Source: Perkinsus olseni (lineage: Eukaryota > Perkinsozoa > Perkinsida > Perkinsidae). From it: DNA of 64,000 bases. Position 1 is the first letter of the stretch. Each line of letters opens with the position of its first letter. The stretch is from assembly GCA_013115135.1 (NCBI GenBank), contig JABANP010000185.1:27682-91681 (forward strand), written 5' to 3'. The position numbers and the translations under genes were made by a program. Under the pieces are notes generated by a model that worked only from the letters and a program-made list of their open reading frames with translations, did not search any database and was not told the DNA's origin. Positions 13,733-52,675 of the stretch are shown here, piece by piece.

Positions 13733-16700
13733 TCTTCGACGTCGTGTCACTTCATTAACGTCCTCACCATCATCATCATCGGAGTTCTCAACGCCCGAGA
13801 GGATCCCAGGTAAGAAGGTGTGCTCACGACTGGCCGTATCAACTGTTGCTGTCTTAGACGCTGTTTTCGCGGCTACTTTGGAGCAGTCTTCGCCGTGTCC
13901 GCCCGCTGTCGAAAATTCAGGTCGGTGAGAAGGGGAGGGCGATGGTGCTGTTGTCGCTTAAAGCTTCGCTCCGTCGTAGCATTAGATTTTTCTGAGCGAG
14001 CTCCGCCACTTCGTCACAGAGGCTTAGTTAATATTATTGGTGTCATGCGAAAGATAAAATAAGCTATACCCATGAGACAGTCTGTCCCACAGTTCTGAGT
14101 CGCATCAAAAAATAGAACGCCACCCATTTTTGACCAACGGTTCAGACCAGCTCGGGACTAATTTCCTTGATCGGAGTGAATTAGAGAATGACTGAACGTG
14201 TTCTGGGGTGGGTTCATGAGAAGATGTGACGATCTCAATCTTGGGATCATCTTCCAGTGAAGATCGGCTCGCCCATGGTTAAACGTTACCGTCTAGATCC
14301 TGAGTGAGGGTCTCTTCCTGAGGACGTCCATAACGGTTCATACCGTGCGTCCAGTAAAAAATATTAATAGCGATGTGATCTATTATCCTGATAATTTTTT
14401 CGCCCTATCTTCTACAGCGCGCAATGCCTTCGTTCCATCGCTTTTTTGCCAAGGCCTAGCTATGTGAGTACCCGTGTGGTTGCTTTAACTGATGTAGCAC
14501 CTGACGCTGGTACAAAACCTGCTTGGGTGCAATAGAGCTGATAACCTAGTTGATTAATATCAATAGATTCGCGAAAGCTTCGCTCAGCTTGCTCTGTGAC
14601 TATGAAGCTCTGTGCGGTCGACCAGCAGACCACACATCTGAGTCGCGGTAACGGCATCTCGCACACGAGCGGCTTTCGAACCTATCCCATTGTTAAATCA
14701 TCATAAACTTGGCAGTTTACTGGCTTCCTCATCATAATTGACGCTTATTAACCGGATTTTACACCGACAAAAGGTAGAAAAATCCCTAATTTTCGAATTT
14801 CCAGATGAAATTTTCCCTTTTTTCGGGTGGGGGTGTTGGTATTCTCATGATACAGATGAGGGAGCCCCTCTCATCGTTAGCTTGCGTTATATGAAATGAC
14901 TTTCCTTATCACTATACAGATACTCTCTCGAAAGCCCCATCGCGTGCCTTCGCCAAACCCGCATTCAATAACGCATGTCCGTCGGAGTCCCCTCCAAGAG
15001 CTGAAGGGCCGATGATGATGGTAAGAGAAGCTCTTCCAAATGCTCCATTCTTGCTCAGCGTGTCCGTCTTTTTCAGAAGCAGCCCGACCTTAACTCCCCT
15101 GAGTGTGTTCAGACGAAGACGTCCGGGCCCGCTGAGAGCAGGCCTCCCGTCGAGGGTAGGCTGATCGATCCTGCTGCTGCTGTCAATCGGAGCGCTGCAC
15201 AGTACTTCGAAAAATCTTGAAATATTTAGCTTTTCCTCATCTCATAATCGTCTTGAAATTTTCCGAAAAATTATCTAAAAATTCCATAAGCAAAATCTTA
15301 ATTAATTTTTAGACAAGCTTGAAATTTTTCATGTCTGTGGCGCGTGCTACCGTCGACGATAATTTCTGAAGTGATTGACGAGCGGTTATTTCATTGCTGA
15401 GAAAACGGAAAAACTCCGTTTGCCAGTGGTGATTCTGATAGCGCCGAGCCGATTCTAGGCGTAGGCAAATTAGTCGGCTGTGGGGTCCCGAGGAGGGATC
15501 TCTTCCGCATAGGGTTGGCCGAGGTTTCGGGAGAATCCTTGCGGTTGTGACGTTGATGCTTGCGCGTAACAGGAAAAAAGATACCATCATCACCACGCAA
15601 AGAAATTATTTCGCGGCCCTGATTTTCTGTAGCTTCGACGTTTTGTCTTTTGTGGGTTGCAGTCGTCCTTGGCAGATTGCCTGCCGGTGGAAAATGTCTT
15701 ATTTACACTGGAAAATTACTGCGCTTATTTGCCAATTTTTTCGCGAAAAATAGAAAATTTTCAGATTTTTTGGATGAGTGTGTTGGTAGCTCCTTGAGTA
15801 TCTTTTTTTCTGTGAGGTGCACGAGTGTCCACGGGCTCGGCGACGGCGGCGTCTCTGAGTGATCTCCCACCGGAACTTCGATGGTGGCCCGCTGAGGGCG
15901 AACGGGCGGGGACTCCAGAGGCCTACCAGGACTTGTCCTGGATGCGACTCGGTATGAGGGCGAGTATCTTAGGTTGACCCGTGCTAGATACAGATTGAGT
16001 TGACTCTGCGGCCGATAATGATCTCTCAGAATCACCACCGAAGGCAGCCGAAAGCCGAAGCGCCGCGCCATCTTTACTGCCACCCCCACCGTCATTGCCA
16101 TCGCTCAGATCCCAGCAGGAAGGGGTGAGGAAAGCGGTTTTCTGATAACATAATAAAAATAATATCAGTACTGCTATTTCGTTAGGTCGGCCCTCGAGTT
16201 CCGTTCATTACTGAGGGCGAGTCAGCTGCAGCAGCCAAGCCCGGTGAGAAGAGGAAAAGCTTTTACTGCGATATTCATTTCCATCAGAATCACCCTCGGC
16301 AGGCAGTCCAGCTGGGTCTGGCGGGATGGAGGCTGCGGTGAGTTCCTCGTGGCCGCCGATCGCGCCGCTATCTGTGCCGGGCTTGGTGATGTGCAGGCGG
16401 TCGGCCGATCGGTCAGTCCTTCGGGTGGGGAGGGAAGGTCTGATGGAGTTAAGGCAGGTAAGGGTATCTTAGGTTGATCCGTGCTTGATACAGAACAGCT
16501 GCACTGATATCAATCTTTCGGTGCTCTCGGCAGATACACCATCATCATCGTCATCATCGTCAAGCAGCCCCATCAGTACATCATCATCACCAGTGGCCAG
16601 TGAGGATGATGACGGCCCTCGGCGGAGTGCCTCGTCGTCGATGCTCCCCTTCACATCTTCCGACGACAGCAGCAGCAGCAGTGACGTCGTGGAGTCTCCG

Positions 16701-19700
16701 GTAAGATGGGTATCTTTGATTCTGTTTGTGACCAGCTTCGACCTTGGCAGCGCTCTTGTGTGATGTTACGTAGACCAGAGTTCAGCGAATTCTCAGGCTC
16801 AAGTCTTCGCTCTTCGAAAATAAGTTATACCAACTTTTGCCGAATTCACGAGTTCTCTCTCCGATATTGCCAAAGTAAACTGCCGTTTCCGAGTTTCCGT
16901 AAACTGAGTTTCCGCGCGAAAAATCAGCAGTTTTGTAACCACTTCTGCTGGATTTCCCTCTGATTTTGACAGCCATCTATCCAAAGACGTGCGTGTGCTT
17001 TCCGCTGCTTGTGGCATCAGCTCACGAGAGCCGACTTTGAAATTTCGAGCGCTCCTATTTCCACCGCCGTAGTCGCCTCAGGTGCGAAGGCCGCGGAAAC
17101 GGCGGTGCGGAGGGAAGAGAGTTCGAATAGTATCACCAGCAGCAGAAGGTATCCAAGGTCGACCCTTGCGTTTCACGAAAGATCTCCTTGGCAGAGATCC
17201 CTCGACGGCGGCTGTCCCTGATTGAGCAGGGCGTGACGGTGGAAGCGTTCAACACCGAGCTGTCGGACATCTTCGGGGTCGAGGTAAGATCGCCGATGGA
17301 AGCTTTTTTTATACATGTGGCTGTACATGGTACAATCGCCGCGTCTCTCATCACAAAGGCCACCGGCTGTCACACAAATTTTACACAAAAGTGATCTTCC
17401 AAAAAACTCTTCCGTCGTCTGCTGCTGCTTAGTATGAGGTCCTGAGCCGTCTTCTCGTTAGAACTTTGCTTGGTTATAATCGCCACGTCTCACTGCAGTA
17501 AGGGTCCTTCCGGTTCAACCGGCGCGATGACAACTTGTCATCACGCCAATAACACACGATTGTGGTTTTCAAGGACTCTTCCAGTGGCCAGCTCAGGTGA
17601 AGCCACCACGGTCGGGGAGATACCTCCGATGGTTCGACAAGAGGGCAGGGGAGACGGCGGGGCCGAGCAGGGAGGAGATGAGGCAGGTGAGTCGCTTGGG
17701 CCTCACTGTTTTCGCGTAGACAGTAATGATTGTTATTTTATTTTGGCGTGAAAAATAGTAGAATTATTTCCTATATTCGTGCTGCGTTTTCCATGACGGT
17801 GGTCGTTCGGTATCATCAACTTCTCCCGATTACGTTATCGGGAAATGCAAATGCTGGCGCCATCCAGAGAGGCAAGAACGTCGTTTGCCTTCGCCTCTGG
17901 CACTATCTCAGTTCGTGTAATTTCGTGCGCGTCATCAGCCGCAGATTTATTGCGATTGAGACCACAGACTAAGCCGGAAAAAGTGTTTTTTTGGATTTTT
18001 TTGCGCCGGGAAGCTCTCCCGGTAAAAGTTGAACTCTAATGGCAAATAGTGTCATTGTTCCTTCACCACTCCCCGCCCATATACTGTATAGTCGCGACGT
18101 TCCTCAGCGCACATGACAACGGCTGTCACGCCGATTTCCTCGTCCTCAGGCGCAGATGCCGCTCCATCGGAAGGTCTTCTTCCTGATGGAGCAGCAATCC
18201 GCCGCCAGAGACCTCCCGGAGGCCCCGGCCGAGCTGCTCGCGGGTACCTTCGGCAAGGCGAAGCTGGCGAGCCTGGAGGTGACCCTCGTCCGCCTTCCCC
18301 CTTCCCTCACGTCTCTTGCCAGGAGGATGCCGTTGTGGCGTGGGTCGCTACCCAGGACCCTGCCCGGATGACCCACCGCATCTGTGCGGCAGCGGTGGTC
18401 GGGTGTAACGGCCGGTGTCCGGGGGGCGGCCCCGCCACCTTCGTCATCCGCCTCTTCGCCACCGCCAAGGAGGTGTCGTTCGGCCGGCGGAAGGTGAGGG
18501 TGATTTGGGCAAGGTGTGGTACGTGAGGAATCCCTACGCACTAAGGATCTTTTCCTTACTAAGGATATTCTGGGTATCTGATTTTCTGCCAAATCAATCA
18601 GCGTCGAATTTTCCGACATCTCGCAGCGTATACGATACAGTCTGTCCAATAAAAATTTTCGCGTTGGGAAATTTTCGCTAGGTGGCACAGGAAGAGTTTA
18701 CGAATCAAACTCAGCGTTCCAGGATAGCCTCAACAATCTCCTTGCAGCCATCGTCTATCGGAATATGGTTACTATTTTAACGTCGCCCTGTGCAACGTTC
18801 TTGCGCAAATTTTTTATCCAAAGCGGAAATTTTTACTAAAAATTTCCGCGTTGGATGAAAAATTTGGAAATTTTTCGGTGGACAGACTGTATCGGGAGAT
18901 GTCATTTATTGTAACGCGGCTTTGATTCTGCATCGCGGTCAACGACAATAGCTGCGATTCCAGATCTTCGTCGATTTGTACACGTTGATTCAGCGTGTGA
19001 GAATCGATCGCGTGATCGATTTTGGATGTTCTCCTCTTCAGGCGAAGGTGCGCGGGTACGGCTGGGGCAAGCTGCTGTTGCAGGAGATCGAGCACCACCT
19101 GGTGGCCCCCCGCAACAGCCCCCACCTGCTCGTCGAAAGCGTGGCGGATGCCTGGCGGTGAGTCGCTCTTAGACGGTCTGATCGAGCTGCTACGACCCAA
19201 TGCTGCTGCTAGCAGCATTCGGGTTCACCGAATGACGCCGCAGAGATCTCATCGTTAAGGGATTAGGCTGACTAAAGCGGCGATGGCGCTGGACTTCAAA
19301 CTCACACAGAAGCCGTTTTTCGCCAACCTTGTGTCGTTGAATCGTTAGAGACCTAGTTTACCGGAGCAAAATAGGATAAGCGATTTATTAAACAATAGAA
19401 GCGTCGTATATTATCAGAGGTCGACCGCTTGGGAAGGACACAACATCCGAGTTTTGCCAACTGGAAGCGAACCTTTCATCTTTTGTCTTCGCATCATCAA
19501 CGCTACAATATAGCGCCTTTGCAGTATCCTGATCCCAAATTGTGTCCCGAATTCTCATAATTTTGGGTCCGTTTTTACACACTAATCTATCTTGATTGGT
19601 TCAAGCTAGTCTCGATCTTCTTTCCTCGTGTAGCATTCTCATCACCCCATCTTTTTGGTCATCTCGCGCTTTCCAACAACCACTTACTACCCTACCCTCT

Positions 19701-20202
19701 TGTGTTGTGATACCGCATTTTGCTGCAGCAAGAGAGGACGAGCATTGGAGTCTCACCCGTGATACAGGAAATTGCTCTGGGCTTCACACCGTCCGTGAAA
19801 GCGTGTGTATTCTCCGCGTTATTCGCTTGCGGCTGAAAACTTTATCACTGACACTGTCATCTTGTGACTAGATGAATATCTTTTCCATCGGTGAAATGCA
19901 TGCTTCAACCTAGGATACTCCTCCTAAAAAGATACTCCCAGAGAGATCATGACATACTGTCGTCGTGTGATATACGAGCTTCCACCACATGAATATCCTT
20001 TCCACCTGTGAAATGCACGCTTCAACCTAGGATACTAGCGAAGCTATCACCACCACACCCCATCAGGTACTGGGCCAAGCTAGGCTTTGAGCTCCGAAGC
20101 TCTCGAGGGGCGGCGTCGAGCGGCTCTGACGGGCAGCAGCTGAGTCGTTACAACGAAACCCTCATCGGTGTGAAACCGGTCCGGTCGTTCCGCCGGCCAT
20201 AA
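13733..20202 (+). CDS. GNAT-fold acetyltransferase with a long Ser-rich N-terminal region (multi-exon)
   Basis: Exons joined by phase: ~13733-13809 (5' end uncertain), 14920-15020, 15077-15155, 15817-15951, 16000-16124, 16186-16243, 16534-16700, possibly one near 16975, 17158-17283, 17597-17686, 18150-18278, 18323-18493, 19042-19157, 20067-20202. The first half is low complexity (runs of Ser, Pro, acidic residues, including DTPSSSSSSSSSP). The C-terminal ~190 residues look like a GNAT fold: a beta strand in ATFVIRLFATAKEV, the acetyl-CoA loop RGYGWGKLLLQEIE (R-G-x-G-x-G), LLVESVADAW, then RYWAKLGFE. GNAT enzymes transfer acetyl from acetyl-CoA; the target is unknown. The exon at 17158 starts inside a GTATCCAAGG element, splicing at CAAG to encode VDPCVSRK. 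The start codon is not located. Introns carry hairpin elements in both orientations and the dispersed repeat seen at 3.9 kb. Confidence 0.7.
15798..15816 (+). repeat. Intron-end motif (A/T)ATCTTTTTTTCTGTGAG
   Basis: It forms the last 19 bases of an intron of the acetyltransferase gene, ending in the acceptor GAG. A near-identical 20-mer, GAATCTTTTTTTCTGTGAAG, occurs at 33261 and 53952, and a partial copy at 32895. Confidence 0.55.
15964..15993 (+). repeat. GTATCTTAGGTTGA hairpin element, intron 3' end
   Basis: Starts GTATC and ends GATACAG, so it closes a 5-bp stem a few bases before the acceptor used (15999). The internal TTAG acceptor would put TGA in frame in this phase. Confidence 0.7.
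16464..16493 (+). repeat. GTATCTTAGGTTGA hairpin element
   Basis: Same 30-nt form as at 15964 (28 of 30 bases shared by eye), with GTATC and GATAC ends. It lies in an intron of the same gene, upstream of the acceptor at 16533. Confidence 0.7.
17149..17190 (+). repeat. GTATCCAAGGTCGA element at an exon start
   Basis: The acceptor CAAG inside the element gives the phase needed for the downstream exon; the remainder of the element is read as codons. Confidence 0.6.
17300..17580 (+). repeat. Two copies of the 'ACAATCGCCACG' dispersed repeat
   Basis: 17300-17410 matches 3862-3985 closely (TATACAT..GCTGTACATGGTACAATCGCC). 17465-17580 is a second, more diverged copy ending in CACGCCAATAACACACGAT. 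Both lie in one intron of the acetyltransferase gene. Confidence 0.55.
19874..19919 (-). repeat. Full-length GTATCYTAGGTTGA hairpin element, reverse orientation
   Basis: On the minus strand it reads GTATCCTAGGTTGAAGCATG ... GAAAAGATATTC, the complete ~45-nt form. It lies in an intron whose gene is on the plus strand, so the element is not tied to transcript orientation. Confidence 0.75.
19991..20035 (-). repeat. Full-length hairpin element, reverse orientation
   Basis: Second minus-strand copy about 115 bases from the previous one in the same intron, sharing almost all positions; flanking bases are also similar, so this is a local duplication. Confidence 0.75.
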
Positions 20203-23565: not shown

Positions 23566-23600
23566 GTATCTTAGGTTGATGCGTGGTTTTTACAAATTTC
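23566..23600 (+). repeat. GTATCTTAGGTTGATGCGTG element downstream of AlkB
   Basis: If the AlkB gene is spliced at 23333, its internal TTAG is a phase-compatible acceptor that would give a short alternative C-terminus. Confidence 0.5.
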
Positions 23601-24135: not shown

Positions 24136-24157
24136 GCCCCTTGTTTTCGCTATAGCG

Positions 24158-26767
24158 ATGTACCGGCCAAAAGGAAGGGTGATGTTGTCAACAGTGACCG
24201 GGCCGAGGCAGGAGGTGGTGGAGGAAGGAAAGCCGGACAAGCAACCGGAGAGGGTTGCTGAGGCGAAGAATGAGAAGGGGTTACCAACGGATAAGGGAGG
24301 GGATGCCCGGGGGAAGGGCAAAGGGAAGAAGGGCGCTGAGGTAGTAATGGCGGGAACAGTTTCTAACGGAAGGACCGCTAGTTAGTTTGAGAGGGTTGCG
24401 TTTAACTAGTGAAGGATCGAAAATTTTCAAATTTTCTTTGCAAAATTTTTGATAAATTCTCTAAATTTTTCTAAAATTTAAGGTGCTCTACTCCCTGGCT
24501 TCGTGCTGCTGCTACATCGTATTTGTGGTTCGGAGGAATCTCCTTTTTGGTATTATTCTGACCCGAGTGATTTTATTTTCTCATACCCAATTTTTGACTA
24601 GAAAGTGCATTCGTGAGGGATTCTGACGAAAAAAATTTGATTCGGAAGGGGAATTCTGCTCGAGTGCTCTTCCCAGGGTCGAAAGGAGGAGTCCACGCCG
24701 ACGACGCCCGGCAAGGGGAAAGGCGGCGGTCGGGCAGGTAAGGGCAAAGGGAAGGGAAGGATGGGTGATCATGATGATGAGGAGAATTCCAAAGCGAGGA
24801 AGGGGAAAGGGTAAGGGGGTTGTTGCTGCGAAATTGGAGGACTTCGGCGGCATTTGGCGGTTTTGGGCAATTTTTGTGACTGCCGGTGAACCCTGGGCGG
24901 GGAGTGTGGGGGATATGAGACGCGCCTTACGGGTTTGTGAGATAGAGCTTTGGGTAATGGATGGTCATTGAGGAATATACTGTGTTACTAGGCCTTCGTA
25001 ACGAAAAGCGGGGCTAGGAACTAATTCTCGGCGTCGAACGACAGCTCGGGCTTTGGAACTTCCTTGGACTCCTTTCCTCGCGAACTTGGGCATTTTGATC
25101 GATCGTGAACTCGCTTTGTTTTTCCTCGATCAACTATTCTTTTTCAGTGGCAGCGAAGGTGGTAAGTCGAAAAGCAGCACTCCTGAGAAGGGGAAGGAGA
25201 TAGACGAGAAAGGCCCGCCGGGGAGCTCGTAAGTCGCGAGGGGCGCGAGTGAAGCGAATTTTTGTGATGTGATTCAGGAGAAAAGTGGTAGTAAGGCTGC
25301 TTCCACCGACCATTACTGAAGAACAGCTGTGGAAGTCCATACCGGAAACGGTTAAGGGAAGTGTGGTGTGGAGGTAGTTGGCGGGGAAGGGGCCTTCGGT
25401 GCTTGTCGAATGGTCTGGTTGTGATGGAGGTGATCGTAGATTGAGCTGTGGGTGGAGGAGAGTTGAGAACTCGATGCTAACGGGGGTTGGTGAGAATAAG
25501 TTTCTGCTATTTAAACGGTGCAAAATTTTCATTTTTTCCGGGAAATTTCTGAGAAATTTTTTCTGAATTTTCTGTGAGCCAGAGACATGGTGAATTCAAC
25601 CATCCCGTATGCTCGACAGCTTCGAGAGTTCTGCCCGGATTCTCTCCTGAGAGTCTTCCTGAAATCTAGGAGAGGTCGCGGTCTATTGAACATTGGAGAA
25701 AGCGTCGAGATTCGAGTTTCGTCTGTAGAATGAGGATTAAATTTCGCACTTCTCGTCACGGCCCTCCCCTCATAACGGGTACAACTCTATCGGTATCAGA
25801 TATTTCGTGCCGGGCGTGCAGCCGAAGCGACCCTCGATTACCTCACCGGCAGTGAATAGTCGTTGTTACCTCGAGTTTGACTCTAAGCAGAGGGCGGCGG
25901 ATTTCGTTAATTCTTTCCACGGCCATAAGTTTGTAGATCATGTAAGGTGGTCGCCTGCTGCCGGCTGGGGTTGATCGATTGCTCGGTAGTTGGGCGAAAC
26001 TTATCGGGCGGTGGTTTGCGCTGCGCCGTGGGGACGGTGTATGCCTGGGGGGAGTAGCCGAAGGCCTAGGCATAGCAGAGACGTTAAGGAAGGGTCTATT
26101 GACAGGTGCAAGTAGGAGAGTTGCTGACTGGGAGGGGGCGCAGGTTCGATCCCGGCCTCAGGTATTTTAAGGATTTTATTGCGTCTATTGCCGAGGAGGC
26201 CCCGGCAGCGTTGCCAGAACCCTTGGAAGGTGATATTGGGCTTTCAGGGGGATGGAAATTTTGTGGTCGGAAAATTTATTTTCTGTTTTTTCCGCGAAAA
26301 ATCGTGACAGCGTGGAATTCGCAGGAAACGGGTGGAGGAATCTTAGGTTGAAGCTGGTTAGATTCAAAAAAGCCTCAGTTACGTGCGACCCTGCGAAAAC
26401 ACCGCTGGTTGATTATATTAATGACTGGTATAAAGAAAAGGAGAAGCGACGAGAGAAAGAACGGCGGCGGCAAAGGGAGGCGGCGGAAGAGGCTCGGAAA
26501 AAGAAAAAACATGCTGCAAAGTAAAAAAGATGAGTTGGCTGTCATTGAGTAAAGGGAAACGGTTTTAGGGAAGCTAAGAAAGCTGGTGAGAAGAAGGGAG
26601 CGGTAGAACCGCAGGAGGGCAAGAAAAAATCAAATCGAAGCGGACGAAGCAGCAAGGATGACGGTAATTTTCGGTAAATTTTTGTTGAATTTATGGCATA
26701 TTTTTCAGAATGGTGGTACGATCAGAGCTGGTACGGATACCGGGGAGGTCGCCGAGGAGGATGGTGA
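24158..26767 (+). CDS. UPF3: UPF3-like nonsense-mediated decay factor (Smg4/UPF3 domain)
   Basis: Ten exons in consistent phase: 24158-24340, 24677-24810, 25148-25228, 25278-25373, 25800-25941, 25990-26036, 26162-26229, 26379-26520, 26569-26663, 26709-26767 (about 348 residues). A Lys/Gly-rich N-terminus precedes the Smg4/UPF3 domain: KVVVRLLPPTITEEQLW, YFVPG, YLEFDSKQRAADFVNSFHGH, ETYRAVV. Then comes a Lys/Arg-rich charged helix (KEKEKRREKERRRQRE) and an aromatic tail, EWWYDQSWYGYRGGRRGGW. UPF3 binds UPF2 and the exon-junction complex and marks transcripts for decay. The reading frame of the last exon is fixed only by phase. A tRNA-like sequence ends exactly at the acceptor of exon 7, and a hairpin element lies in the next intron. 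The start could also be the ATG at 24182. Confidence 0.85.
26104..26167 (+). repeat. tRNA-like fragment forming an intron 3' end (UPF3)
   Basis: D-arm-like GCAAGTAGGAGAGTTGC and B box GCAGGTTCGATCCCGGC. The UPF3 acceptor AG (26160-26161) lies within the tRNA-like 3' end CTCAG|GTATTTT, so the tail of the tRNA-like unit is the first codons of the exon. Confidence 0.65.
26337..26365 (+). repeat. Hairpin element variant GGAATCTTAGGTTGAAGC
   Basis: Ends GAATC and GATTC pair; located 13 bases upstream of the UPF3 acceptor at 26378. Confidence 0.6.
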
Positions 26768-27204
26768 TCTCCTGGCGGGTGAAACGGTCGAAAGATTCCC
26801 TCACGAGTAAGTGGTGGTCGCATGTGTAATTTTATAGTCCAACTTTATACGGTTCCGGCTTGGACTCTTGTCGATGGGTGGGAAAATAGACCGATCTCGA
26901 AGCACTGGTTATGAGTAGCGATGACATCTGAGTAATGCGCTGCAGCGCGGCAGAAAAACTTGAAATCTGAGAGAATTATTGTGCAGTCTTAGGACAAGCT
27001 TTGCAGCGTCCTGAGGTAGAGCTGGTGGTGATTGGTCTTTTCTCAGGCGGCCATGACCGTAGGTTAGATCGATAGAGGACCGAAGGGTGTTAGCGAGCCG
27101 CTCGGGACGCTCATAACGTGATGATGACGATTATAGTATTTTCCTTGAAAAATATCTACTTTGTGTTTACAAGTTAGTGAAAGATTCGTATCCAAGGTTG
27201 AAGC
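26768..27204. other. Intergenic between UPF3 and TatD
   Basis: No gene. A fragment of the GTTTACAGTCC repeat family (TTTTATAGTCCAACTT) is at about 26830. Confidence 0.4.
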
Positions 27205-27220
27205 ATGCACGCGACGAAGG
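27189..27220 (+). repeat. GTATCCAAGGTTGAAGCATG element overlapping the TatD start codon
   Basis: The ATG of the TatD frame (27205) lies inside the element, so the first residues of the protein are encoded by repeat sequence. Confidence 0.6.
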
Positions 27221-34937: not shown

Positions 34938-34967
34938 TATCTTAGGTCGACCCATGCTGTTGACAAG
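34938..34967 (+). repeat. GTATCTTAGGTCGACCCATG element
   Basis: Typical left half of the hairpin family, ending GTTGACAAG, with no recognised gene around it. Confidence 0.6.
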
Positions 34968-35619
34968 TAGCAGAAGAACATAGTAATAACGGTTTTGTTA
35001 TTACTCACTATGTTAACTCGAAACAGAATACAAAATTAGAAACGGCTCTTTCCCAGAGAATCATGGTGAATCATCTCCCAGAGGCGAGAAACCTTGATAC
35101 GTGAGCTTGAAGGCCAGTTTGCGCGCTAAATGCGAGGACCTGTCGTGATGCAGTAACATAGCGCGTCGGGAAAAGTCAAAGAGGAACTAAGGAATATGAA
35201 AGAAAGACAAACGAATGGAAATTTTATATTTTTTTATTTATTTATTTTTTAATTTACTTGAATGTTTAATTTTCTTTACCCAGATTTTTTTACTTCTTTC
35301 AGTAATTTTTTCCAGATAGTGATGGGTCGGAAAATCATCGTACTGATCAACCTGCCTGAGAAGAGCTGGCTTCGACCTAAGATTCTCCGGAGAAAGGAAA
35401 AAGTACATGAGCCGCACCGGAAGGCCAGTTTTTTGGAAAAATTTCGCGGAAAATCTGAAGGAGAAACCTTTGATAATCTGCCCAGTGAAAGCGTCTGAAA
35501 TTTTCAAGCCTTTTCTTCTGTTGCACGCAGACACCACTTCTTGCCATCTTGTCAGTTCTTGCGTTTCCTCTACGCTCATCACCCGTCCGACGCCAAAGCA
35601 GCAGCTCGCGTTGCCACTG

Positions 35620-43200: not shown

Positions 43201-46200
43201 AAATCTTGAAGTCTTGGGGAAAATACGAATGGGTGTGGAGGAGGAGAGCAAGGAAATCGCGAAGGTGTGGGGAGGGGCTGTGGGGTGCTTCGAGAACGCT
43301 GCTTCAGTTTTCCGAAAGTGAATTTTGGGATGAAAAATGTGGAAATTTTTTCATTTTTTTCGGGTAAAACTGCACTGTGGTCAGGCGGAGAAAAATATTG
43401 ATAAGAAAGAAGAGAGCATGGTGGAGGTGAGGAAGGAAGCGAAGCCGTTGCGGATGAGAATTCAGACGATTAATGATACGGTAAATTGGGGATCTTCTGG
43501 CCGTAGTAGGCATGCCCATTGACTCTGAATCGATTGGCCTGCTCTTGCGGGAGCTGTTTGTCTGGTTGAGGCGTTGATAAAGGGGTAATTTGTGACCCGT
43601 GTAAGCTACCCATTCTGAACATGTGCAGTTTCGTTTCCACTCACGGTGGAAGGGGAGAGGGATTGTCTGATAGTAGCATTTATTGCGGATTTTCATACTT
43701 CCCTGTCATTTTTTTCTGTCCCTATTTTCATGTTGGTTGTTGCGAATTTTTGACAGAGAAATGCCGGGCCTAGGATTCGAACCCGGGACTCCCGGGTGCG
43801 CTGGCTATGTCGAGTAAAGGAGGCCCGGCATTTCGCCATGAAGGCTTAGTTTGTGATTTTTGTGGGCGTCTTTGTGATGTTCTTCTTTTTTCAGATTGAG
43901 GTGATGAATCAAGGTCTAACGCAGATTAAGGTAAAGCTGTCGAATGAGCGGGAGAGGTAGTAGAAGTACTGGAACCGAGAATCGAACTCGGGACCTATCG
44001 CGTGTGAGGCGATCGTCATAACCCACTAGACCATTCCAGCGGTAGGTATCTTAGGATAGCTTTAGTGTAGGTACATGGAGGAGGTGTCTCGGAAAGTCGG
44101 ACTGGACATGCAGCTGAGGCAGTGCAAGGATAATTTCCTTCACGCTCAAGTGAGATTATGATCTCGTATCCAAGGTCGATGCTGGCTTGTGGCAGAATGA
44201 GGCCAGTCGAAAGGATAAGCAACTCTACAGAGCAAAGAGGGACACTAAGCAGGCGATGATCAAGCAGGAGAGGGCAGAGGCGGCGTTGAAGGCTACGGAG
44301 GTAAATGTGGGTGGCGTTCGAGGGGAAGAAATCGCCATTTTAGCATTAACTGCTGGGTCAAAAGTCTAACGCCTACGATAATACGGCTTAGAACTGATGT
44401 ACTTTTTTTGGGGGAACGAGCTACGAATGTTAGCGTGAGCGATGCGGTCCCCGTCGTCTGTTGGCCAGTGTGGAACACATAAATTTCGTATTTTTTCGAT
44501 ATTTTTTTCAGGGAGGAGAGAATTTTGTTCCGATTTTTTCGGCCGTTTTTTTGTGGAAGAGGTTAAAGATTTTGGTATCAGGGAGAAATAGAAGAGGCTG
44601 TTGACCTGGCGGAGAAGATGGCGACTGATGACAAGAAGCAAGAATCTTTGCTCGAGGAAGTCCAAGCGGAGGTTGACCTCTTCATGGCAGCTTTCATGCG
44701 GCAAGAATCTATGGACCATCATAAAAGTGGGAAATTTTTCGTAGTTGTGGTGGATTTTTCCTGGGCAGAGATGGACTATGAGGGTCTCCTTGCGAGGCTT
44801 GGTGATCAGCAGAAGGAGTTGCAGGTAGTAGTGGAGGATATGCTGTTGATAGCGTGATCTGAAATTCTGAAATTATCGCCCCAACCAAGGCGATGAACTT
44901 TCTTTTCCAGATGGATTAATCTGATCACAGTGCTGGCGAGAGGCTCCCGTTCTCCACGGGCTGCGAAGTGAATTCGCAGAAGTTGGCTTCGAACGAATCT
45001 CTTTCGCACGACCAGTTCTAGGTTAGCGTGCACGCTGAAATTGGGTGGGCTAAGAGTGTTTCTCCTACAGAATTCAGTGCTGCAAATAATCTTAGAATAT
45101 TTCCGAAAAGAGCGATATCTCGGTAACAATCGCGAATCAGAAGCTGTTTCTTGGATATGTTGTGTATAATAGCATTGCATAAAGATTGAAAGTGTAATCA
45201 AAACCGTTTCGTAAGTAGATTCTGAGAAATGGGCGAGCGAAAAATCCCATACTGCATACCATCACAATCGCAACTCATCATCCTACTCCATGGGTTGGTC
45301 CTCCAGGCTTTGGGAAAGGCGGAGGCTTCGGCCAAAGCAGAGGGAAAGGTTTCTGATCAGTCAACGTGAAAAGCTGAACCGGGATACAGAGTTGGTGAAA
45401 AAACTTTGCAAGCAGACCTTGGGCGAGGTATGTCTGTAATCGATCATCCGGGCGCGCGCTAAATGCATCGCATGGTAGGTGCAGATGAAAATAGCGGAGG
45501 AAGCGGACCAGCGGAGGAAAGTGGAAAGTTGTGGTATGCGACAAAAGGAATGCCGGTCAGCCTATGAAATAATCAAGAACGAACGGAATAAGTGCTATCT
45601 TGCTCCCTTGTCCCCACTTGCATTTCCTCAACGCTGAAGGTATCTTAACTTGATCCAGACGGCTTCTCAGAGAGTTAGTGAGATGCAGGAGAAGTACCGA
45701 ATGTTGAATAATGAAGCGGACGTTTTACAAGGGGAAAGTCACGCCAAAGGAAAGGCGGTGGAAAAGGCCAAGACCGAAGCGGCAAAGTGGGGGAATTTCG
45801 TGGCGCAGTGACGATTTTCGAGATTTCTGCGCTTTTTCGAGATAATGGTTTCGGAAATATTTCTCATAGTGATGGGAATGTTGCCATTTGTTATAGATTT
45901 TTGCCGAAACTTTTCGGGTTTTCCGGAATTTTTCCCGTTTTTCCATCAGGCAGAGAAGCATCAGAGATCGACTGTTGAGTGAATATAATAAGATGAACAA
46001 CAAGGGTCACGAACTTAACGATGAGGTTGGGAAAAATTCCCGAAAATTTCCGGAAATTTCTTTCTCGGACAGGTCGAGCGAAATGTTTCGGATATTGACA
46101 AGTTGAACTATATGATAAATAACCTGGAGAGGAAGCTGGAGGATATCGGCGAGAAGTAGTGACGGGTCCGGTGGAGGGAGTTCAAAAATCAGGCGGAGCG

Positions 46201-49200
46201 AAGGTCGTTTTGTATCTAATAAAAGTGCCCCTTCCGAAGCCGGGCCTTGACGCATGCATAAGCTTCGGGGATGCTGAAGAATGGTGATCGATCTCCGAAT
46301 CAACTGTAACTGTTTTGGCCGGCCATTGGCGGTAGTAGTAAGAGTGTTGACGGTGGCTGTGGCGGTGGATATCCTACTTAGTTTGAAGTAGGAGTGAGTT
46401 GGATCTGTTGCGGCTATGTTAGTCAATAGGAAACCATTCATTCGTAATCACGATTTTGAGGGCGATGGGCTTACGCTTCATAGTTGCTTCTTGCGAACGT
46501 ATTCTCTGCTGAAGGGTCTTGATGGTTAGAAATAAGAAATTCGATTTTTTCCGCCCAAAATTTGCAAGGATTACCGATTTGTAAGGCGGAAGAAACGCCT
46601 TAGAAATGGTGGCTTTGGAAGGGTTAAGGTTGACACCAAATTTTGTTGATCGGGAGTTTTTATGATCAGGTATGAGGCGACGCTGGAGGACCGGAATTTT
46701 GCGGGCGTGGAGCTGATTGATCGAAATGACGAGCTCTGCGTTTTATGGGAGAAATTTAATTCTTTGGAAGGGCGGACGGCGAAGGTAGTAGTCGATGGAG
46801 TATCTTAGGTTGATGCGTGCATTTTACGGGTGGGAAAGATACTCACGTAGCTCACGTATATGATACGATGAGAGTAATGATGAGTTTTTTGTAACGAAAA
46901 AACCGGAGCTCCACGCGAACTCTCCGGATTCGGGATCGATCGATCATAGTCGCCGAGAAATAATTTGAACGAACAAAGGAAGCGCATAAGTGATAGTTAT
47001 ATGCTCCGCCCGCTTCTGCAATTTCCCTGGAAGTGTATTTTGAGGAGGTAGTATCCAAGGTTGATGCTCGCATTTCGCGGATGGAAAAGATACTCATGTG
47101 ATTCACGCGGGAGTATCTTTTTTAGGGGTCGATGGCGATGTTGAAGCTCTCGGAAGATATTCGACAGCGGACGTTGGCAGCGGGTCAGCTTCGAGGAGAG
47201 GTAATGAGGGAAACGAACGCTAGAGGTGTCAGAAAAAATTTAAATGGAATTTTTTCAGTTGGATATTATCAAGAAGCAGCTCCAAGTCGCATCCACGAAT
47301 GCTGGAATCGATCGTCAGGGCGAGCGCGCTTTGCAATCGGGTATCGGTTTTGTTGGGGTGGAAATGATAGCGTGTCTTTTAGTTGGGATACACCCGTCCA
47401 GTGTCGGGTCGGGACCGCTGATGGTGGGCGAAGCGGATGGAGCTGTTGTGGTAGAAAAGATGAAGGTGAGCGTATCTTAGGTTGACCCTAGGATTTCACG
47501 GGTGAAGAAGATACCTTTGGTCAGGAGCAGCTGGCTGCGTTGATTGGGAAGTCGGCGATGCTGTCGAAAGAGTTGGAGGACCCGAATAGTGTTTTTCGGA
47601 AATGGCGAGAACTGGAGGGAAAAGTAATTAGGGAAAAATTCGTTTTTTTCCTGAAAATCAAGAAAAGTTTTCGGATTTTTCACTTGCACGGTGGTTGCAA
47701 AAAACTTTTTGTGTGAGTTTACAGTCCGACGCTCGAAAACGAATTATCTGTTCAACAGGGGTGGTAGTGGTAACTTTCCTTCGTCGAGAACGACGTGCTC
47801 CGGCGGGCTAGCGGCGCTTCCTGTTCAACGGTGGAGTTTCTCCCGTGATGTGAATAACATTTCACATTTCACATCGCGAAATTCACATTCAACTGGTTGG
47901 TTTATAGCCCATCTGAGCCGGTAGTCTCGGCCGTGGTTTTACGCTTCTTTTCGATGTGTTGCGTATCTTAGGACCTCGACAGGGACATTCTAGCGGCAAA
48001 GATACGCTTACTCGAGGAGAGGTTGAATGATAAGAAGGAAACACTGGTGGAAAAGGTACGAAATTTTCGGGGAAAATTTCATAAATTTCTGCGTGAATTT
48101 CACGATTTCGCGGAGGATTTTGAACGATGTGGTCGAATGAATTTGTTAGGGTGGAGTTTTTTTTCCGAAAAAATCGGGAAAAAATAGCGGCAATCTTCTT
48201 CGTAAATTTCGCGATTTTCGGAAGACGATGTGTTTCAGGGAATTTTTGAGGGAGGGCTTTTTTCGGAAAATTTTGAGGGAAATAACAGAAAATCCGGGGA
48301 AATGAGTGACAAATTTTTGGACTGTGGTGGGAGAGACGGGAAATTTTTGATCGGGCGTTGATGATCGTTGATTGTAGGATATGATTTTGGAGGAATTGGA
48401 CCCGCTGTGCAGCAAAGTGGCGGCCCAGGTGGCACAAGGAAGAGAAGAAAAATTGGTGTTGATGCAAAAAGTAGAAAATTCTGAGGGGGTAATTTCGTGG
48501 CGCGTGACGGTGGTGTAGGTAAATTCGCTACAGCAAACTCTGCGGGATTTGACGAGGAAGTTGGTTTCGGCGGTGTCGGAGTTGTCGATGTATCAAGCGA
48601 CAGCGTTGGATGGCGAGGGAGAGAATAGGAAGCTGCAGGCTCTGGTTGACGAAGCCGTGGAGAGGTTACGAGTTGGGGATGTTGTGGTACGTAATTTGGG
48701 AGGGGCTGGTGGGAGTATCTTGAGGTTGGTTATGGGTCGATGTGAATTGGTGGATAGAAAGATAGTAAAAAATTTTGTTAGAAAATTGTATGAACTCGTA
48801 AGGTAGCGCTGGATGCGCGTTTTTTCGGGCGGAGCGAAGCTCGTCGTTTTGGAGATGTTAGGGAAAAGCGTCAGATGGATCCTCTTTCGCAATCATCAGT
48901 CAGGAATAGTAATTCTTAGCCGACGCGAAATGACAAGAATTGGTGAATTTCCGGTATCGAATTGGTTTGCGGATGCGTTCAGGTGTAGTTGATTCAGAGA
49001 ATCAGGATGGGAATTAATTATTAGTATCTTAGGTTGACCATGGGCAAAGATGAGGGAGAAAGATATTATTTTCGGTGTTAGGAGCCTGTGGTACCCTTCC
49101 CTGGTGAATCGGAAGTGCTGCTGCAGCGGGCCAGGAGAGGGGAGGAAATTGAACATGAACACACGCTGGAAAGGCAGAGAAAAAAGAAGGAAAAAGAAGA

Positions 49201-49647
49201 AGCTAATGATCCCAATGCTGTTCGGTAAGGAATTTCGTGGCGCGCGGTCATTTTGTGAGCGATTGGTTCCCCCGTGAAAGTCAAGTTCGATTCTGGAATT
49301 TATTTTTACGCACGTGAATCGATTCTGAATTTCGGAAATTGTTAATAAGAAACCAATTTTAAGATAATTTTTTGGAAAAAAATTTTCGGTAATAAAATAA
49401 GTGAATAAACTAAAACTGATAATTTTGACTAATAAATTCGCTCCAGCTGAGTTTATAATAAACCGTTGATTGGTATCTTAGGTCGACCGCGGTACCGCGC
49501 ATGCAACAGTACGTACCTGAAGATGGGAGTATCGGGCTGCCTCGGGCTTACGGTGTTCATGCGCCTTTCTTGCCGAGTGAGGCTGGAGCTAACATGAGGC
49601 ATTTTCGGAAGTCGGGAAGGGAGAAGGGAGGGGATGTCGATTTTTAA
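40298..49647 (+). CDS. CFAP58: CFAP58 (CCDC147)-like cilia and flagella-associated coiled-coil protein
   Basis: About 26 exons joined in phase, including 40298-40449, 40766-40838, 41481-41606, 42202-42307, 42615-42697, 43034-43114, 43385-43480, 43895-43956, 44071-44149, 44196-44300, 44582-44726, 44769-44824, ~45227-45427, 45950-46025, 46073-46155, 46670-46784, 47126-47200, 47525-47623, 47972-48055, 48378-48488, 48519-48686, 49082-49224, 49482-49647. Two exons at 45.49-45.79 kb and one at 47259-47465 have uncertain borders. The product is nearly continuous coiled coil. CFAP58 signatures are AGVELIDRNDELCVLWEK, KWRELEGK..DRDILAAKIRLLEERLN, LTRKLVSAVSELSMYQA and the C-terminal YVPEDGSIGLPRAYG..APF.PSE.G.NMRH. 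CFAP58 is needed for flagellar axoneme assembly. Introns are 30-600 nt and rich in hairpin elements, tRNA sequences and the TTTCGTGGCGC motif. Confidence 0.85.
42891..42919. repeat. 10-bp palindrome in a CFAP58 intron
   Basis: ACGCATCCGG and CCGGATGCGT separated by nine bases. Confidence 0.6.
43762..43829 (-). repeat. tRNA-like sequence in a CFAP58 intron
   Basis: A perfect 7-bp acceptor stem (GCCGGGC/GCCCGGC) and a good T arm (CCGGGTTCGAATCC), followed on the minus strand by TTT. The 68-nt body is short and I find no D arm, so it is probably a decayed tRNA. Confidence 0.6.
43967..44040 (-). tRNA. tRNA-Val (CAC), antisense inside a CFAP58 intron
   Basis: A 74-nt cloverleaf on the minus strand: acceptor GCTGGAA/TTCCAGT (one G-U pair), a D arm with GTC/GAC, anticodon stem ATCGC/GCGAT with loop CTCACAC (anticodon CAC), variable AGGTC, and T arm CCGAG/CTCGG with loop TTCGATT. 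All arms pair. The host intron (43957-44070) consists of ten bases, this tRNA and a hairpin element. No T run follows the 3' end, so Pol III termination is unclear. Confidence 0.92.
44046..44070 (+). repeat. GTATCTTAGGATAG element forming an intron 3' end
   Basis: Ends in the acceptor TAG at 44068-44070 used by CFAP58; the inner TTAG would put a stop in frame. Confidence 0.65.
44166..44195 (+). repeat. GTATCCAAGGTCGATGC element in a 46-nt intron
   Basis: Occupies the 3' two-thirds of the intron 44150-44195. Splicing at the inner CAAG would also stay in frame, adding VDAGLWQ. Confidence 0.65.
45794..45811 (+). repeat. AATTTCGTGGCGCAGTGACG motif
   Basis: Starts seven bases after a CFAP58 donor. 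One of six copies (45794, 48491, 49231, 50377, 52537, 52864). Confidence 0.6.
46800..46842 (+). repeat. Full hairpin element
   Basis: GTATCTTAGGTTGATGCGTG ... GGGAAAGATAC with a 6-7 bp terminal stem, in a CFAP58 intron. Confidence 0.75.
47051..47093 (+). repeat. Full hairpin element
   Basis: GTATCCAAGGTTGATGCTCG ... AAAAGATAC, in the same intron as the 46800 copy, followed by GAGTATCTTTTTTAG, which ends the intron. Confidence 0.75.
47472..47514 (+). repeat. Full hairpin element near an intron 3' end
   Basis: GTATCTTAGGTTGACCCTAG ... AAGAAGATAC, ten bases before the acceptor at 47524. Confidence 0.75.
47700..47935 (+). repeat. Dispersed repeat, family 'GTTTACAGTCC'
   Basis: Contains GTGTGAGTTTACAGTCCGAC, GACGTGCTCCGGCGGGCT and GGTTTATAGCCC, shared with 28545-28735 and 53715-53850. 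Inside a CFAP58 intron. Confidence 0.55.
47963..48005 (+). repeat. Hairpin element spanning a splice acceptor
   Basis: The left arm GCGTATCTT ends the intron (acceptor TTAG at 47971); the right arm AAGATACGC lies in the exon and codes for KIR of CFAP58. Confidence 0.7.
48489..48518 (+). repeat. 30-nt intron made almost entirely of the TTTCGTGGCGC motif
   Basis: GTAATTTCGTGGCGCGTGAC followed by ten bases ending GTAG. Removing exactly these 30 bases keeps CFAP58 in frame and removes an in-frame TAG. Confidence 0.75.
49024..49066 (+). repeat. Full hairpin element in a CFAP58 intron
   Basis: GTATCTTAGGTTGACCATGG ... GAAAGATATT, 15 bases before the acceptor at 49081. Confidence 0.7.
49473..49505 (+). 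repeat. GTATCTTAGGTCGACC element at the last CFAP58 exon
   Basis: The acceptor TTAG (49478-49481) within the element is the only one giving the frame that ends with the CFAP58 C-terminus; the element then codes RSTAVPRMQQ. Confidence 0.7.
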
Positions 49648-49705
49648 TAAGAATGGTGTACTGTTGTGAGAGGTTGTGGTGTTGTAGTGGTAGGGAGATG
49701 GTGGG

Positions 49706-49749
49706 GTATCTTAGATTGAAGCGTGCACTTTGTAGGGTTGAAAGATATG
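49706..49749 (+). repeat. Full hairpin element
   Basis: GTATCTTAGATTGAAGCGTG ... GAAAGATATGC. Confidence 0.75.
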
Positions 49750-49853
49750 CGTTAGGTTGCTCTTAGTTGAAAAGCTATGTCTCGTCAAGCGAGCCCAGTG
49801 GAGGGAGGAGGGGGTTTGGTAGTTTCTTGGAGTTGGATCGAGGATTTTATGTG

Positions 49854-49897
49854 GTATCTTAGGTTGAAGCATGCATTTTGTAAGGTTGAAAGATACG
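49854..49897 (+). repeat. Full hairpin element
   Basis: GTATCTTAGGTTGAAGCATG ... GAAAGATACGA; probably the closest copy to consensus. Confidence 0.8.
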
Positions 49898-49945
49898 AGT
49901 TGGGTTGCTTTCAGTTGAGGAACTATTAATTGAGGAACTTGTGTG

Positions 49946-49988
49946 GTATCTAAGGTTGAAGCATGTACTTTGTAAAGTTGAAAGATAC
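49946..49988 (+). repeat. Full hairpin element
   Basis: GTATCTAAGGTTGAAGCATG ... GAAAGATAC. Confidence 0.75.
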
Positions 49989-50012
49989 GCTTCAGTTAAC
50001 AAACTTGTTGCC

Positions 50013-52675
50013 ATGTCCCATCAAGCGAGTCCAGCGGGAGGAGGAGGATCATGTGGGAGTGCAACGCCACCAACGACAGACCTTGACTCGACTTCCGCGG
50101 GAAATCATAGGTGGCAGGGATCGAACCGGGGACCTTTCGGATGAGAAAATGATATTTCAGGAAAAGGCTTCGGCATCACCAGCTCACCCCGGCGGCTGTG
50201 GCGGGGCAAGCGGAAGCTCTTGCGAAGGAGTTTGTTCATGCTTTGCCCGTAAGATTTTTTTTCTGATTTTCCCGGAAATTTTTCGGGTTGCCTTTCTGAC
50301 TTTCCGATCCTTTTCAAAATTTTCCGAATCTTCCGTGTTATTTATTTTTGGTTTTTTCCTCGGAATTTTCCGGAATAATTTCGTGGCGCGCGGTCAGGTT
50401 GGTACGGTAGTGATTTGCCGTATGGTCGAGCTCGATCAATGGCGGCACGGGACGGTGGTGAGCATAAGAAGAAGGGAGAATCTCCCGGAGGAGCAACCCT
50501 TGCAGCAGGTGGGGAGGTCCCGGGTTCGATCCCTGGTGAGGGTATTTTTTCCAGGCCGGTGACCATGATTATTATGTACATTTTCAACGGATGAATCGAC
50601 GACACGACCGGTGGATCAAATGGGAGGATCTGAAATTATGTGACAGCTCGGAGAACAGCAGCGAATCTAATGGAGTTAGCGTGCCAGGTGGGAAATCTTG
50701 CTCATCTTGAACAATCTTGCTATTACTCTAAATCTGTGAGGGCAGTGATTGTCGATCATCTTAGGTTGACGCGTGCTTTTTTCACGCACCGTTGGTTGGG
50801 TGATTACCCCATGTCTTTTCAACAAAAGTCTTTTTTACCCATTTTTTATCGATTTTTCGCCGAGAATTTCGTTTTTTCCCTTCCTTTTTCTGGCTTGATT
50901 GAAAAACTATTGTTCCCTGTAGAGTATTGGTGGTTGTGATCGGGACATAGAGAATACAAGTTGCTGGGTAGCGGGAAATATTCGACGAATTCTTTTTTTT
51001 TGCGGAAAATTTTTTTCACGCCACAATTTTCACAACTTCCGCGCAAAAGTGTAGTTTGTTTTTTGTGGAATTTTTAGTAAAATTTTCTGACATTTTCAGC
51101 GTCTTTATCGTTACCGGTGGATGATGAGTACAGCGATGATTCTGATCATGAAGGAATGGGGAATGAAGAGCTCGAAAGTTGGGAAAAGGCGACCAGAGTG
51201 AAGCGAATCCAAAAGATATTCTTCCACAAGTAAGCGTGCACTTGACGGAAAAGGTTGGTTTAGTTTTTTTTCAGGTATATTTTTGACGCCTGGTATTGGC
51301 CGCCGTTTCCGGAAGAGTATCAAGATTTGGATATTCTCTACTTTTGCGAATTCTGTCTGAAGTTTTTCGAGTAGGAAATTTGGGGGATTTTTCCGCGGAA
51401 ATTTTCGGAAAATTTGGTATAAATTTCATTAAAGAAATGAAGCGTTTCATCGGCTAGGCTGGAAGAAAGGAAAAAGAAATTTTTCAGCGCGGAGTTTGGA
51501 TTTTTTGGTATTTGACATGAACGGAGCTGCGCAGTTCTCAAGCGTTCGCGGTGACGGAATGATAATTTTTTTGCGGTGATCAAAGATTTCTACGATTCTC
51601 AGCTCGATTGTAGCTGTGATGTAGGGAGTGAGAGCTGTTTTAAAATGGGTGAAAAATTCCGAATCGCACAATCGTTTGTTCTTTTTTCAGCACCCGCGAC
51701 GGTTTGGTATGTCACATGAATCGATGCATCCACCGTCGGCCGCCGGGCGACGAAATCTACAAAGATCCGATCCAGAGAATTTCCATCTTTGAGGTTGACG
51801 GTTATTTTCAGCGAGTTTACTGCGAAAATATTTGCTATTTGGCAAAACTTTTTCTGGACCATAAACGCTTTGATCGATTCACTGTTCACGAATTCTTCTT
51901 TTATGTGCTGTGCGATTGGGGCGAGAACGGCGAGTATCATTTCCGTGGATATTTTTCGAAAGACAAAATCGTGACTCATCGGAATCTGTCGTGTATTCTG
52001 TCGCTTCCGTGCTTCCAGAGGCGCGGAATCGGCAGTTTTCTGATCGATTTTTCGTACGAACTTTCGAGAAGAAGTAAACAGATTGGCTCACCGGAGAGGC
52101 CTTTGTCGGATTTGGGAAAAAGAACTTATTTACGTTACTGGTTGAGCAAAATTTTGGACGTGCTGAAGACGCTGAACGTGAAAGACCAGATCAGTATCCA
52201 GATGCTGTCGGAGCTGACTTACATCAAAGAAGATGATATTGTGATGTGAGTGGAAATTGGGGATTTTCGAGCGCGGTGCATGAGTTTTTGAAAACGCTAG
52301 AATGCTGTTAGGAAATGGGCTCGCTAGAAACGGTTGGTTCTTTAAGTCACTCGTTAGCCGTGTGAGTTTTACGACAAGCTGCTCAGCACCGATTTGGCTT
52401 GTTTTTTTGAAGGGAACAGTTCCGAGGTAAATTTATCGAGTTAGGAATGTTGTGGTCAGGGCGAAAGATACGCTGTTTTCGAGTCACTGGGTGGACACAA
52501 TTTTCTGTCTCCTTTTTTTGTTTTTACTAGTGGAGGAATTTCGTGGCGCAGTGACGTTTTTCAGGACATTGACCGAGTATAATATTTTGGTATACTATAA
52601 AGGGAATCATCATATCGCCTTACCACCATGGAAAATAAAGAAGCTGTACAAACCTCCTTCGGAAAATCATTTAAA
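50013..52675 (+). CDS. MYST-family histone acetyltransferase with chromo-barrel domain
   Basis: Exons in exact phase: 50013-50110, 50161-50248, 50398-50508, 50555-50687, 51100-51229, 51275-51370, 51691-52245, 52565-52675; one further short 3' exon is expected but not fixed (a candidate lies near 52850). Domain order: chromo barrel ([14 protein letters not shown]...[17 protein letters not shown]), the C2HC-type finger beginning [10 protein letters not shown], and the MYST catalytic core. The core shows LDHK (the lysine that becomes autoacetylated), [19 protein letters not shown] (catalytic Cys and the acetyl-CoA loop QRRGxG) and [10 protein letters not shown] (catalytic Glu). Tip60/Esa1-type enzymes acetylate histone H4. 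Three introns contain tRNA-like sequence at a splice site. Two end with, or contain near the acceptor, the TTTCGTGGCGC motif. Confidence 0.92.
50111..50150 (-). repeat. tRNA-like fragment forming a 50-nt intron (MYST intron 1)
   Basis: The intron 50111-50160 reads GTGGCAGGGATCGAACCGGG then GACCTTTCGG, the antisense of a tRNA T arm and variable region; the donor GT is the first base pair of the fragment. Confidence 0.7.
50377..50397 (+). repeat. AATTTCGTGGCGCGCGGTCAG at an intron 3' end
   Basis: The motif ends exactly in the acceptor CAG (50395-50397) of MYST exon 3. Confidence 0.7.
50509..50554 (+). repeat. tRNA-like fragment forming a 46-nt intron (MYST intron 3)
   Basis: The whole intron is GTGGGGAGG, a sense T arm (CCGGGTTCGATCCCTGG), TGAGGGTA, then TTTTTTCCAG. 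The Pol III-like T run doubles as the pyrimidine tract. Confidence 0.75.
50755..50798 (+). repeat. ATCTTAGGTTGACGCGTGC element
   Basis: Copy of the hairpin family in MYST intron 4; an inner stem ACGCGTGC/CACGCACCG is also possible. Confidence 0.55.
52537..52564 (+). repeat. AATTTCGTGGCGCAGTGACG at an intron 3' end
   Basis: Followed by TTTTTCAG, the acceptor of MYST exon 8. Confidence 0.7.

Follow-up and report, generated by a model that had tools for sequence, protein, structure and literature searches.

Does the short repeat that recurs throughout a 64-kb stretch of the genome of the clam parasite Perkinsus olseni (the window; 64,000 nt in all) represent a mobile or introner-type element, a motif maintained by selection, or a by-product of splice signals? 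The original prediction had described about 30 copies of a ~45-nt hairpin and proposed the first of these. Having followed the repeat across the genome, we favour, with a probability slightly below even (about 0.47), an old, non-autonomous and very small introner-like family of P. olseni, 28 or 42–43 bp in length.

A dispersed family of short repeats

Pattern searches of both strands of the P. olseni assembly (61.48 Mb, 968 contigs) yielded 2,055 matches to GTATCTTAGGTTGA with at most one mismatch, compared with 16 (6 forward, 10 reverse) for the reversed pattern. The motif is thus far more common than expected by chance, and it occurs in both orientations, as predicted (1,024 forward and 1,031 reverse matches). 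The window lies on contig C96, and its longest ORF matches a P. olseni protein at 99% identity. In the window, where GTATCTTAGGTT with at most two mismatches matched 31 times (4.2 expected; maximum of 10 over 100 shuffles), the family of ~30 copies proved real, and element density was ~7-fold the genome mean (15 copies with at most one mismatch per 64 kb vs. 33 per Mb). A weight matrix built from 176 non-redundant copies—drawn from the window, twenty 10-kb stretches picked around matches and a few 3-kb loci, some of them overlapping—reached at least 10 bits in 216 places but nowhere in the reversed control. Among the 25 window places listed originally, 20 scored 16–44 bits, while the other five (22665, 22859, 32514, 44046 and 47963), which did not reach the cut of 9, proved to be partial copies or variants with indels.

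In line with the predicted spread over many host genes, copies were dispersed and resided in predicted introns of unrelated genes. Local duplications of the element were likewise present, as were tandem arrays: head-to-tail series were found at L032 5121–5760, L033 4514–4820 and L026 4630–4840 (units of 38, 40 and 38 bp, respectively), and beyond the core the unit sequence differs from array to array. Beyond the element, up to 100–300 nt away from copies, a search for further motifs returned nothing consistent. Among the matches listed for open-access Perkinsus literature on introners, intron gain, transposable elements and genome assembly, no title described these elements.

Code-like conservation and two discrete lengths

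Alignment revealed a consensus of RTATCYTWAGGTYGA, followed by HSCNNGS, five free bases and finally A, C/T, R, G/A and A. Conservation of the element is code-like: G20 was kept at 96–98% amid nearly free neighbours at positions 18, 19 and 22–26, also with copies chosen on other positions, and positions 6 and 7 showed solely T/C and T/A (n = 97). This pattern speaks for a functional binding motif: a protein or a base-pairing RNA would recognise a pair of half-sites, set a fixed distance apart, in DNA or pre-mRNA, and selection would keep the motif in introns and intergenic DNA for splicing, chromatin boundaries or replication; the intron site preference described below would then be a separate matter. 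The information content, however, points the other way. Summed over the matrix, the aligned copies hold ~31 bits (an overestimate, since the motif was a selection criterion), about twice the ~16 bits that are enough to mark ~2,000 sites, and copying is therefore favoured over convergent selection.

A partner heptamer, AAGATAC, lies at two fixed places relative to the 5′ motif. Genome-wide, 90 exact pairs of the two were found at gaps of 0–30 nt (some being the same copy on duplicated contigs), with none in the control; 53 of them measure 27–28 bp, 31 measure 42–43 bp and six have other lengths. Among the 176 aligned copies, 47 carry AAGATAC (at least six of seven bases) at positions 22–28 and a further 32 carry it with at most one mismatch at position 36/37. 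Full copies had been predicted to end in complementary GTATCTT/AAGATAC arms, which holds for fewer than half (79/176, both spacings together), whereas 88/176 lack a 3′ arm in the stretch inspected. Part of the copies thus have the terminal inverted repeats that characterise miniature inverted-repeat transposable elements (MITEs), and the anticipated ~45-nt hairpin resolves into two discrete forms, 28 and 42–43 bp long, plus many copies devoid of the 3′ arm. In the 28-bp form, RRAATAGGTC follows the 3′ arm.

The arms do not behave like a conserved stem. Irrespective of the 5′ arm variant, the 3′ arm remains AAGATAC; among 92 variant 5′ arms, 16 pair with the arm at position 22 (15.4 with shuffled arms) and six with that at 36/37 (8.1 with shuffled arms), and the strongest mutual information within the element is between near neighbours. 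As the suggested check for stem covariation thus revealed none, we rejected a conserved RNA stem or structured RNA element, the arms being free of compensatory changes. A shorter GTATC/GATAC stem just before a splice acceptor, also proposed originally, fits some copies (the acceptor score at +30 is good in 11/176) without being typical of the family. Together with TTGAH, which matches a general branch-point pattern, these 11 copies are what favours reading the repeat as no more than a degenerate consensus of the 3′ splice site or branch point; the fixed 28- and 43-bp pairs oppose it.

All of these forms occur in the window. The 28-bp type is represented at 15964..15991 (+; 3′ arm TAGATAC; matrix score 44.2), 16464..16491 (+; 43.3), with a predicted donor 6 nt upstream, and 26338..26365 (+; GAATCTT...TAGATTC; 37.0). 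Two further 28-bp copies have diverged, namely 33583..33610 on the minus strand in its 5′ half, followed by AGAATAGGTC (with AAGATACAGAATAGGTCGG at 33585, same strand), and 37914..37941 (+) in its centre, with AAGATAC and then GAATTAGGTC, as judged from matrix and sequence. Of the 43-bp type, both arms are full at 46800..46842 (+; 42.8) and 49854..49896 (+; 35.1), each an exact pair, and at 47472..47514 (+; 40.1). Arm variants of this type lie at 19876..19918 (−; AAGATAT; 36.5), 19993..20035 (−; AGGATAT; 37.8), 27188..27230 (+; GTATCCAAGGTTGA subtype with the weak arm TAGATTC; 33.7), 47051..47093 (+; GTATCCA...AAGATAC; 33.0) and 49024..49066 (+; AAGATAT; 31.1), while the 43-bp copies at 49706..49748 (+; AAGATAT; 31.9) and 49946..49988 (+; 33.4) are each inside a local duplication. 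Copies without a 3′ arm were found at 17149..17176 (+; GTATCCAAGGTCGA subtype; 34.8), 23566..23593 (+; 39.6), 34937..34964 (+; 33.8), 35358..35385 (−; GAATCTTAGGTCGA; called by pattern and matrix), 38463..38490 (+; 30.9) and 49473..49500 (+; 16.4).

Scanning the whole window against Rfam at the gathering threshold returned one tRNA and nothing else. This tRNA-Val (cac; 43966–44040, minus strand) is located inside a predicted intron (43901–44070) of a plus-strand gene and immediately precedes the partial copy at 44046.

Location relative to genes

Exons and introns were predicted from DNA by a small gene finder written for this analysis. Of 170 copies placed, 75 were intronic in sense and 38 in antisense orientation (P = 0.0006), 49 were intergenic and eight exonic, so that the description ‘mostly in introns’ holds for 113/170 copies. 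Exons were avoided (8/170 copies, vs. ~26% of random positions being exonic), and most copies lay in long introns or between genes. The sense bias was confined to the 43-bp and 3′-armless forms (63:25), the 28-bp form being without strand bias in introns (12:13). Sense copies were concentrated within 10 nt after a predicted donor (16/75 vs. 5.7 expected), whereas antisense copies were enriched 10–30 nt after it (11/38 vs. 5.9 expected) and never found within 10 nt (4.3 expected). Acceptors were not in excess at 20 nt or less from sense copies (6 vs. 11.3 expected).

Both the sense bias and the crowding beside donors add to the case for a binding motif, while the many copies outside genes and the unbiased 28-bp form detract from it. 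The splice-consensus reading fares far worse. Equal numbers on both strands, the intergenic copies and the missing acceptor excess, alongside the fixed arm spacing, refute it as a full explanation, and we regard it as highly improbable; the genome search thus did not reduce the repeat to a degenerate 3′ splice-site consensus, the outcome named beforehand as fatal to the original claim.

Depletion from exons and accumulation in long introns would also suit MITE-like transposon remnants piling up where, unlike in exons, they are tolerated; the compact introns described below would on that account be old introns trimmed around a copy, none of them made by the element. The same holds for a gene-poor stretch of contig C20 (L029 6571 to L030 6063), which harbours 22 copies on both strands within 9.5 kb and in which a search for hidden exons found little coding signal. 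Harder to reconcile with such remnants is the crowding of donors beside sense copies.

Compact predicted introns filled by one copy

Twenty-five predicted introns of at most 130 nt hold a copy (14 sense, 11 antisense). In the best of these, the intron consists of 4–8 nt, the element and ~10–16 nt. Across predicted introns, the element stands at varying distances from donor and acceptor. For instance, a predicted 59-nt intron in the window (47466..47524, plus strand) comprises gtgagc, the 43-bp copy at 47472..47514, which occupies most of it, and ctttggtcag. Other window copies associated with short predicted introns are 44166..44193 (+; GTATCCAAGGTCGA subtype; 34.7), within a 46-nt intron (44150–44195), and 39175..39202 (−), which overlaps, in antisense, a 40-nt intron that the gene finder called in a plus-strand gene. 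Introns of 47–59 nt with an element of 39–43 nt leave almost no older intron to be trimmed, which further weakens the case for transposon remnants.

Eight protein pieces around element introns were run against Pfam, with junction positions obtained by residue counting. Junctions fell inside the best Pfam stretch for a uridine kinase (69-nt intron, sense), a proteasome subunit (50 and 88 nt, sense), RNA polymerase Rpb1 domain 5 (79 nt, sense), a ubiquitin hydrolase (117 nt, sense) and Sec62 (72 nt, antisense). Two tandem DnaJ genes carry their predicted introns (89 nt sense and 52 nt antisense) in the same codon, again with the junctions inside the Pfam stretch. The junction in a kinesin (47-nt intron, antisense) was outside the best Pfam stretch and is judged by the sequence motif. 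For two of these genes, the kinesin and the second DnaJ, the predicted intron ends inside the element, at AAG|ATAC and TAG|ATAC (the bar marking the junction), exon 2 thus starting with ATAC, in which TAC is a tyrosine codon. Individual junctions are uncertain since a rebuilt version of the gene finder shifted a few, with the ubiquitin hydrolase and the window copy at 49854 using the element's own GT as donor. As a group, these compact predicted introns, several of them inside Pfam domains, support the introner-type claim, in that one repeated sequence supplies predicted introns to unrelated genes.

Predicted introns often directly precede RTAY

Because the first gene finder scored sequence context on both sides of a splice junction, its calls might have been self-reinforcing; it was therefore rebuilt with the first four exon bases unscored. 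With the rebuilt version, 54 of 523 predicted introns (window and L015–L034)—about a tenth—lay directly before RTAY, compared with 6.1 expected, and an initial pass with long ORFs as its sole training set already showed an excess (10/147 vs. 1.6 expected). The preferred position was NNR|TAY, mostly before Tyr codons, where 30/262 sites had a predicted intron vs. 0.67% of phase-2 sites; the control sites YTAY, RTTY and RTAR had one in 3/709, 20/888 and 8/515 cases, respectively. Exon-2 starts called by the first finder were GTAC (18), GTAT (18) and ATAC (13), ~10-fold their coding frequency. RTAY introns were less often preceded by G (24/52 vs. 335/470, P = 0.0004) and more often started with GTA (35/52 vs. 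240/470, P = 0.028).

Independently of a gene model, RTAY followed strong acceptors 28 times (11.7 expected). A strict acceptor pattern applied to the whole genome gave an RTAY odds ratio of 1.97, against 1.67 for the all-sequence background and 2.46 for YAG without a tract, so that this test adds little, being weak against local background. RTAY introns were not significantly richer in recognisable copies, be it among those of at most 130 nt (6/25 vs. 21/188, P = 0.10) or among longer ones (6/68 vs. 19/239); N|RTAY, chiefly NNR|TAY, is favoured with or without a recognisable element. We nevertheless join footprint and element into one story because RTAY is a palindrome resembling the element ends (GTAT...ATAC).

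A second short intronic repeat emerged alongside, consisting of tRNA T-arm-like pieces around GGTCCCGGGTTCGATCCCGG in either orientation. It matched 40 times in 264 kb and occurred in 33 of the 523 predicted introns (18 sense, 15 antisense), some of them just 50–68 nt long, with one intron common to this and the element list; examples are window 26112–26161, L020 5410, L021 9331 and L015 2324 (minus strand).

Age, mobility and a possible partner

Three pairs of duplicated sequence, aligned over ~31 kb, allowed copies to be compared: window positions 41,123–60,086 recur on contig C968 (117000–137000; 92.0% identical), part of C192 on C20 (94.7%) and 3 kb of C73 on C107 (96.6%). Such collinear duplications at 92–97% identity are diverged haplotypes or segmental duplicates. 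For 27 elements in this DNA, no clean empty site, and hence no clean presence/absence difference of the kind that a mobile element might leave, was found; one element lay where the compared sequence was cut off, and the 5′ end of the copy at 50756..50783 (+; 21.6), intact on C968, is missing from the window. Nor did the proposed search for target duplications yield anything convincing, the best signal among 6,545 offsets per class being an isolated z of 4.8 with no repeated full match; a bare TA duplication would be indistinguishable from the inverted ends.

Across the duplicated pairs, divergence relative to non-coding DNA is 0.67 at positions 1–14 (15 differences vs. 22.4 expected, P = 0.066), 1.00 at positions 15–26 and 1.93 at positions 27–31; given these ratios, present constraint is weak at most. 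The slower change at positions 1–14 is what a binding motif would lead one to expect, yet it falls short of significance in copies picked for their intact look, and the 3′ positions change almost twice as fast as non-coding DNA. Room for such a motif is left by the code-like conservation and by searches that turned up neither clean empty sites nor convincing target duplications nor a partner; on balance, we consider it unlikely, if a serious contender.

Regarding a partner, 24 matches to DDE_3 transposases, 22 of them above the cut-off, were detected in the genome. The presence of this TA-type family, together with the inverted ends of the element, is compatible with transposon remnants, but neither the element nor its ends were found at the two DDE_3 loci read among the 24. 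One of the DDE_3 (Tc1/mariner-type) transposons, at L041 829–2787 (C188:55500–59500), has a 382-codon open frame and 312-nt inverted arms that are 99% complementary and unrelated to the element ends. Searches for two other families as autonomous partner gave no match, and none in controls either. With no convincing target duplication either, we judge transposon remnants improbable.

The claim of a mobile or introner-type element is accordingly upheld in part: dispersal, inverted ends, both orientations and predicted introns made up almost wholly of one copy agree with it, while covariation, target duplication and presence/absence differences do not add to it. The argument for mobility therefore draws on the number of copies, their information content and the RTAY footprint of introns rather than on an insertion caught in the act.

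Comparison with known systems

MITEs are short, non-coding elements with inverted ends and many dispersed copies, usually far larger than 28–43 bp. The P. olseni element shares their brevity, non-coding nature, inverted ends and dispersal, but is far smaller, shows no target duplication and lacks a same-ended transposon at the two DDE_3 loci. The internal eliminated sequences (IES) of ciliates are TA-bounded, excised, very short and of discrete lengths. TA by both ends, very small size and discrete lengths are seen here too; unlike IES, however, P. olseni copies remain in the assembled DNA and avoid exons, with no sign of DNA excision.

Introners of diverse eukaryotes are reported to have family median lengths of 30 to 654 nt, inverted ends in part of the families and, in some families, a splice site borrowed from the insertion site (PMC9860276). 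Like these, the P. olseni repeat forms predicted introns in unrelated genes, with 28–43 bp placing it at the low end; it differs in that compact introns hold only a minority of its recognisable copies, that the search for a target duplication found none and that distances to splice sites vary. In the alveolate relative Amoebophrya, introner elements are described as having 8–20-nt inverted repeats at intron ends, 3–5-nt direct repeats and non-canonical splice sites (PMC7789003). Introns with inverted repeats able to form a hairpin are thus common to both, whereas the P. olseni arms are constant, 7 nt long and mostly intron-internal, with predicted GT–AG borders.

A small introner-like family as the favoured reading

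The introner-like reading is favoured by copy number, information content and the two lengths, together with predicted introns filled by the element in either direction and the RTAY footprint. The copies that keep both arms, about half, end in R-TA-TCTT...AAGA-TA-Y at two fixed spacings; copies occupy non-coding sequence of both strands, and some short predicted introns consist of one copy, in either orientation, plus a few flanking letters. Under this introner-like scenario, copies would have inserted at RTAY-like sites, some of them in coding regions at NNR|TAY. There, border splice signals—GTA... on the upstream side and, on the downstream side, a YAG or the AAG|ATAC belonging to the element itself—may have let them leave the mRNA. 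Insertion would by now have ended or become rare, with copies decaying. Elements of 28–43 bp look too small for ordinary cut-and-paste transposition, and our guess is therefore an intermediate of single-stranded DNA or of RNA.

More tentatively, and doubtful on present evidence, a single RTAY-recognising insertion machinery might have made a sizeable part of Perkinsus introns via 28–43-bp elements, perhaps also via the tRNA-like pieces, mostly at NNR|TAY and with AAG|ATAC or a following YAG as 3′ splice site. Such a process would be sequence-specific, act in both orientations and operate at the low end of introner sizes.

Intron gain is a long-standing question, and here is a compact genome with thousands of very short copies and predicted introns that are nearly pure element, in which the RTAY site preference hints at how such introns were gained. 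If the link between element and footprint fails, the RTAY preference of introns still wants explanation; if it holds, a sequence-specific process of intron gain would be visible in a relative of the dinoflagellates.
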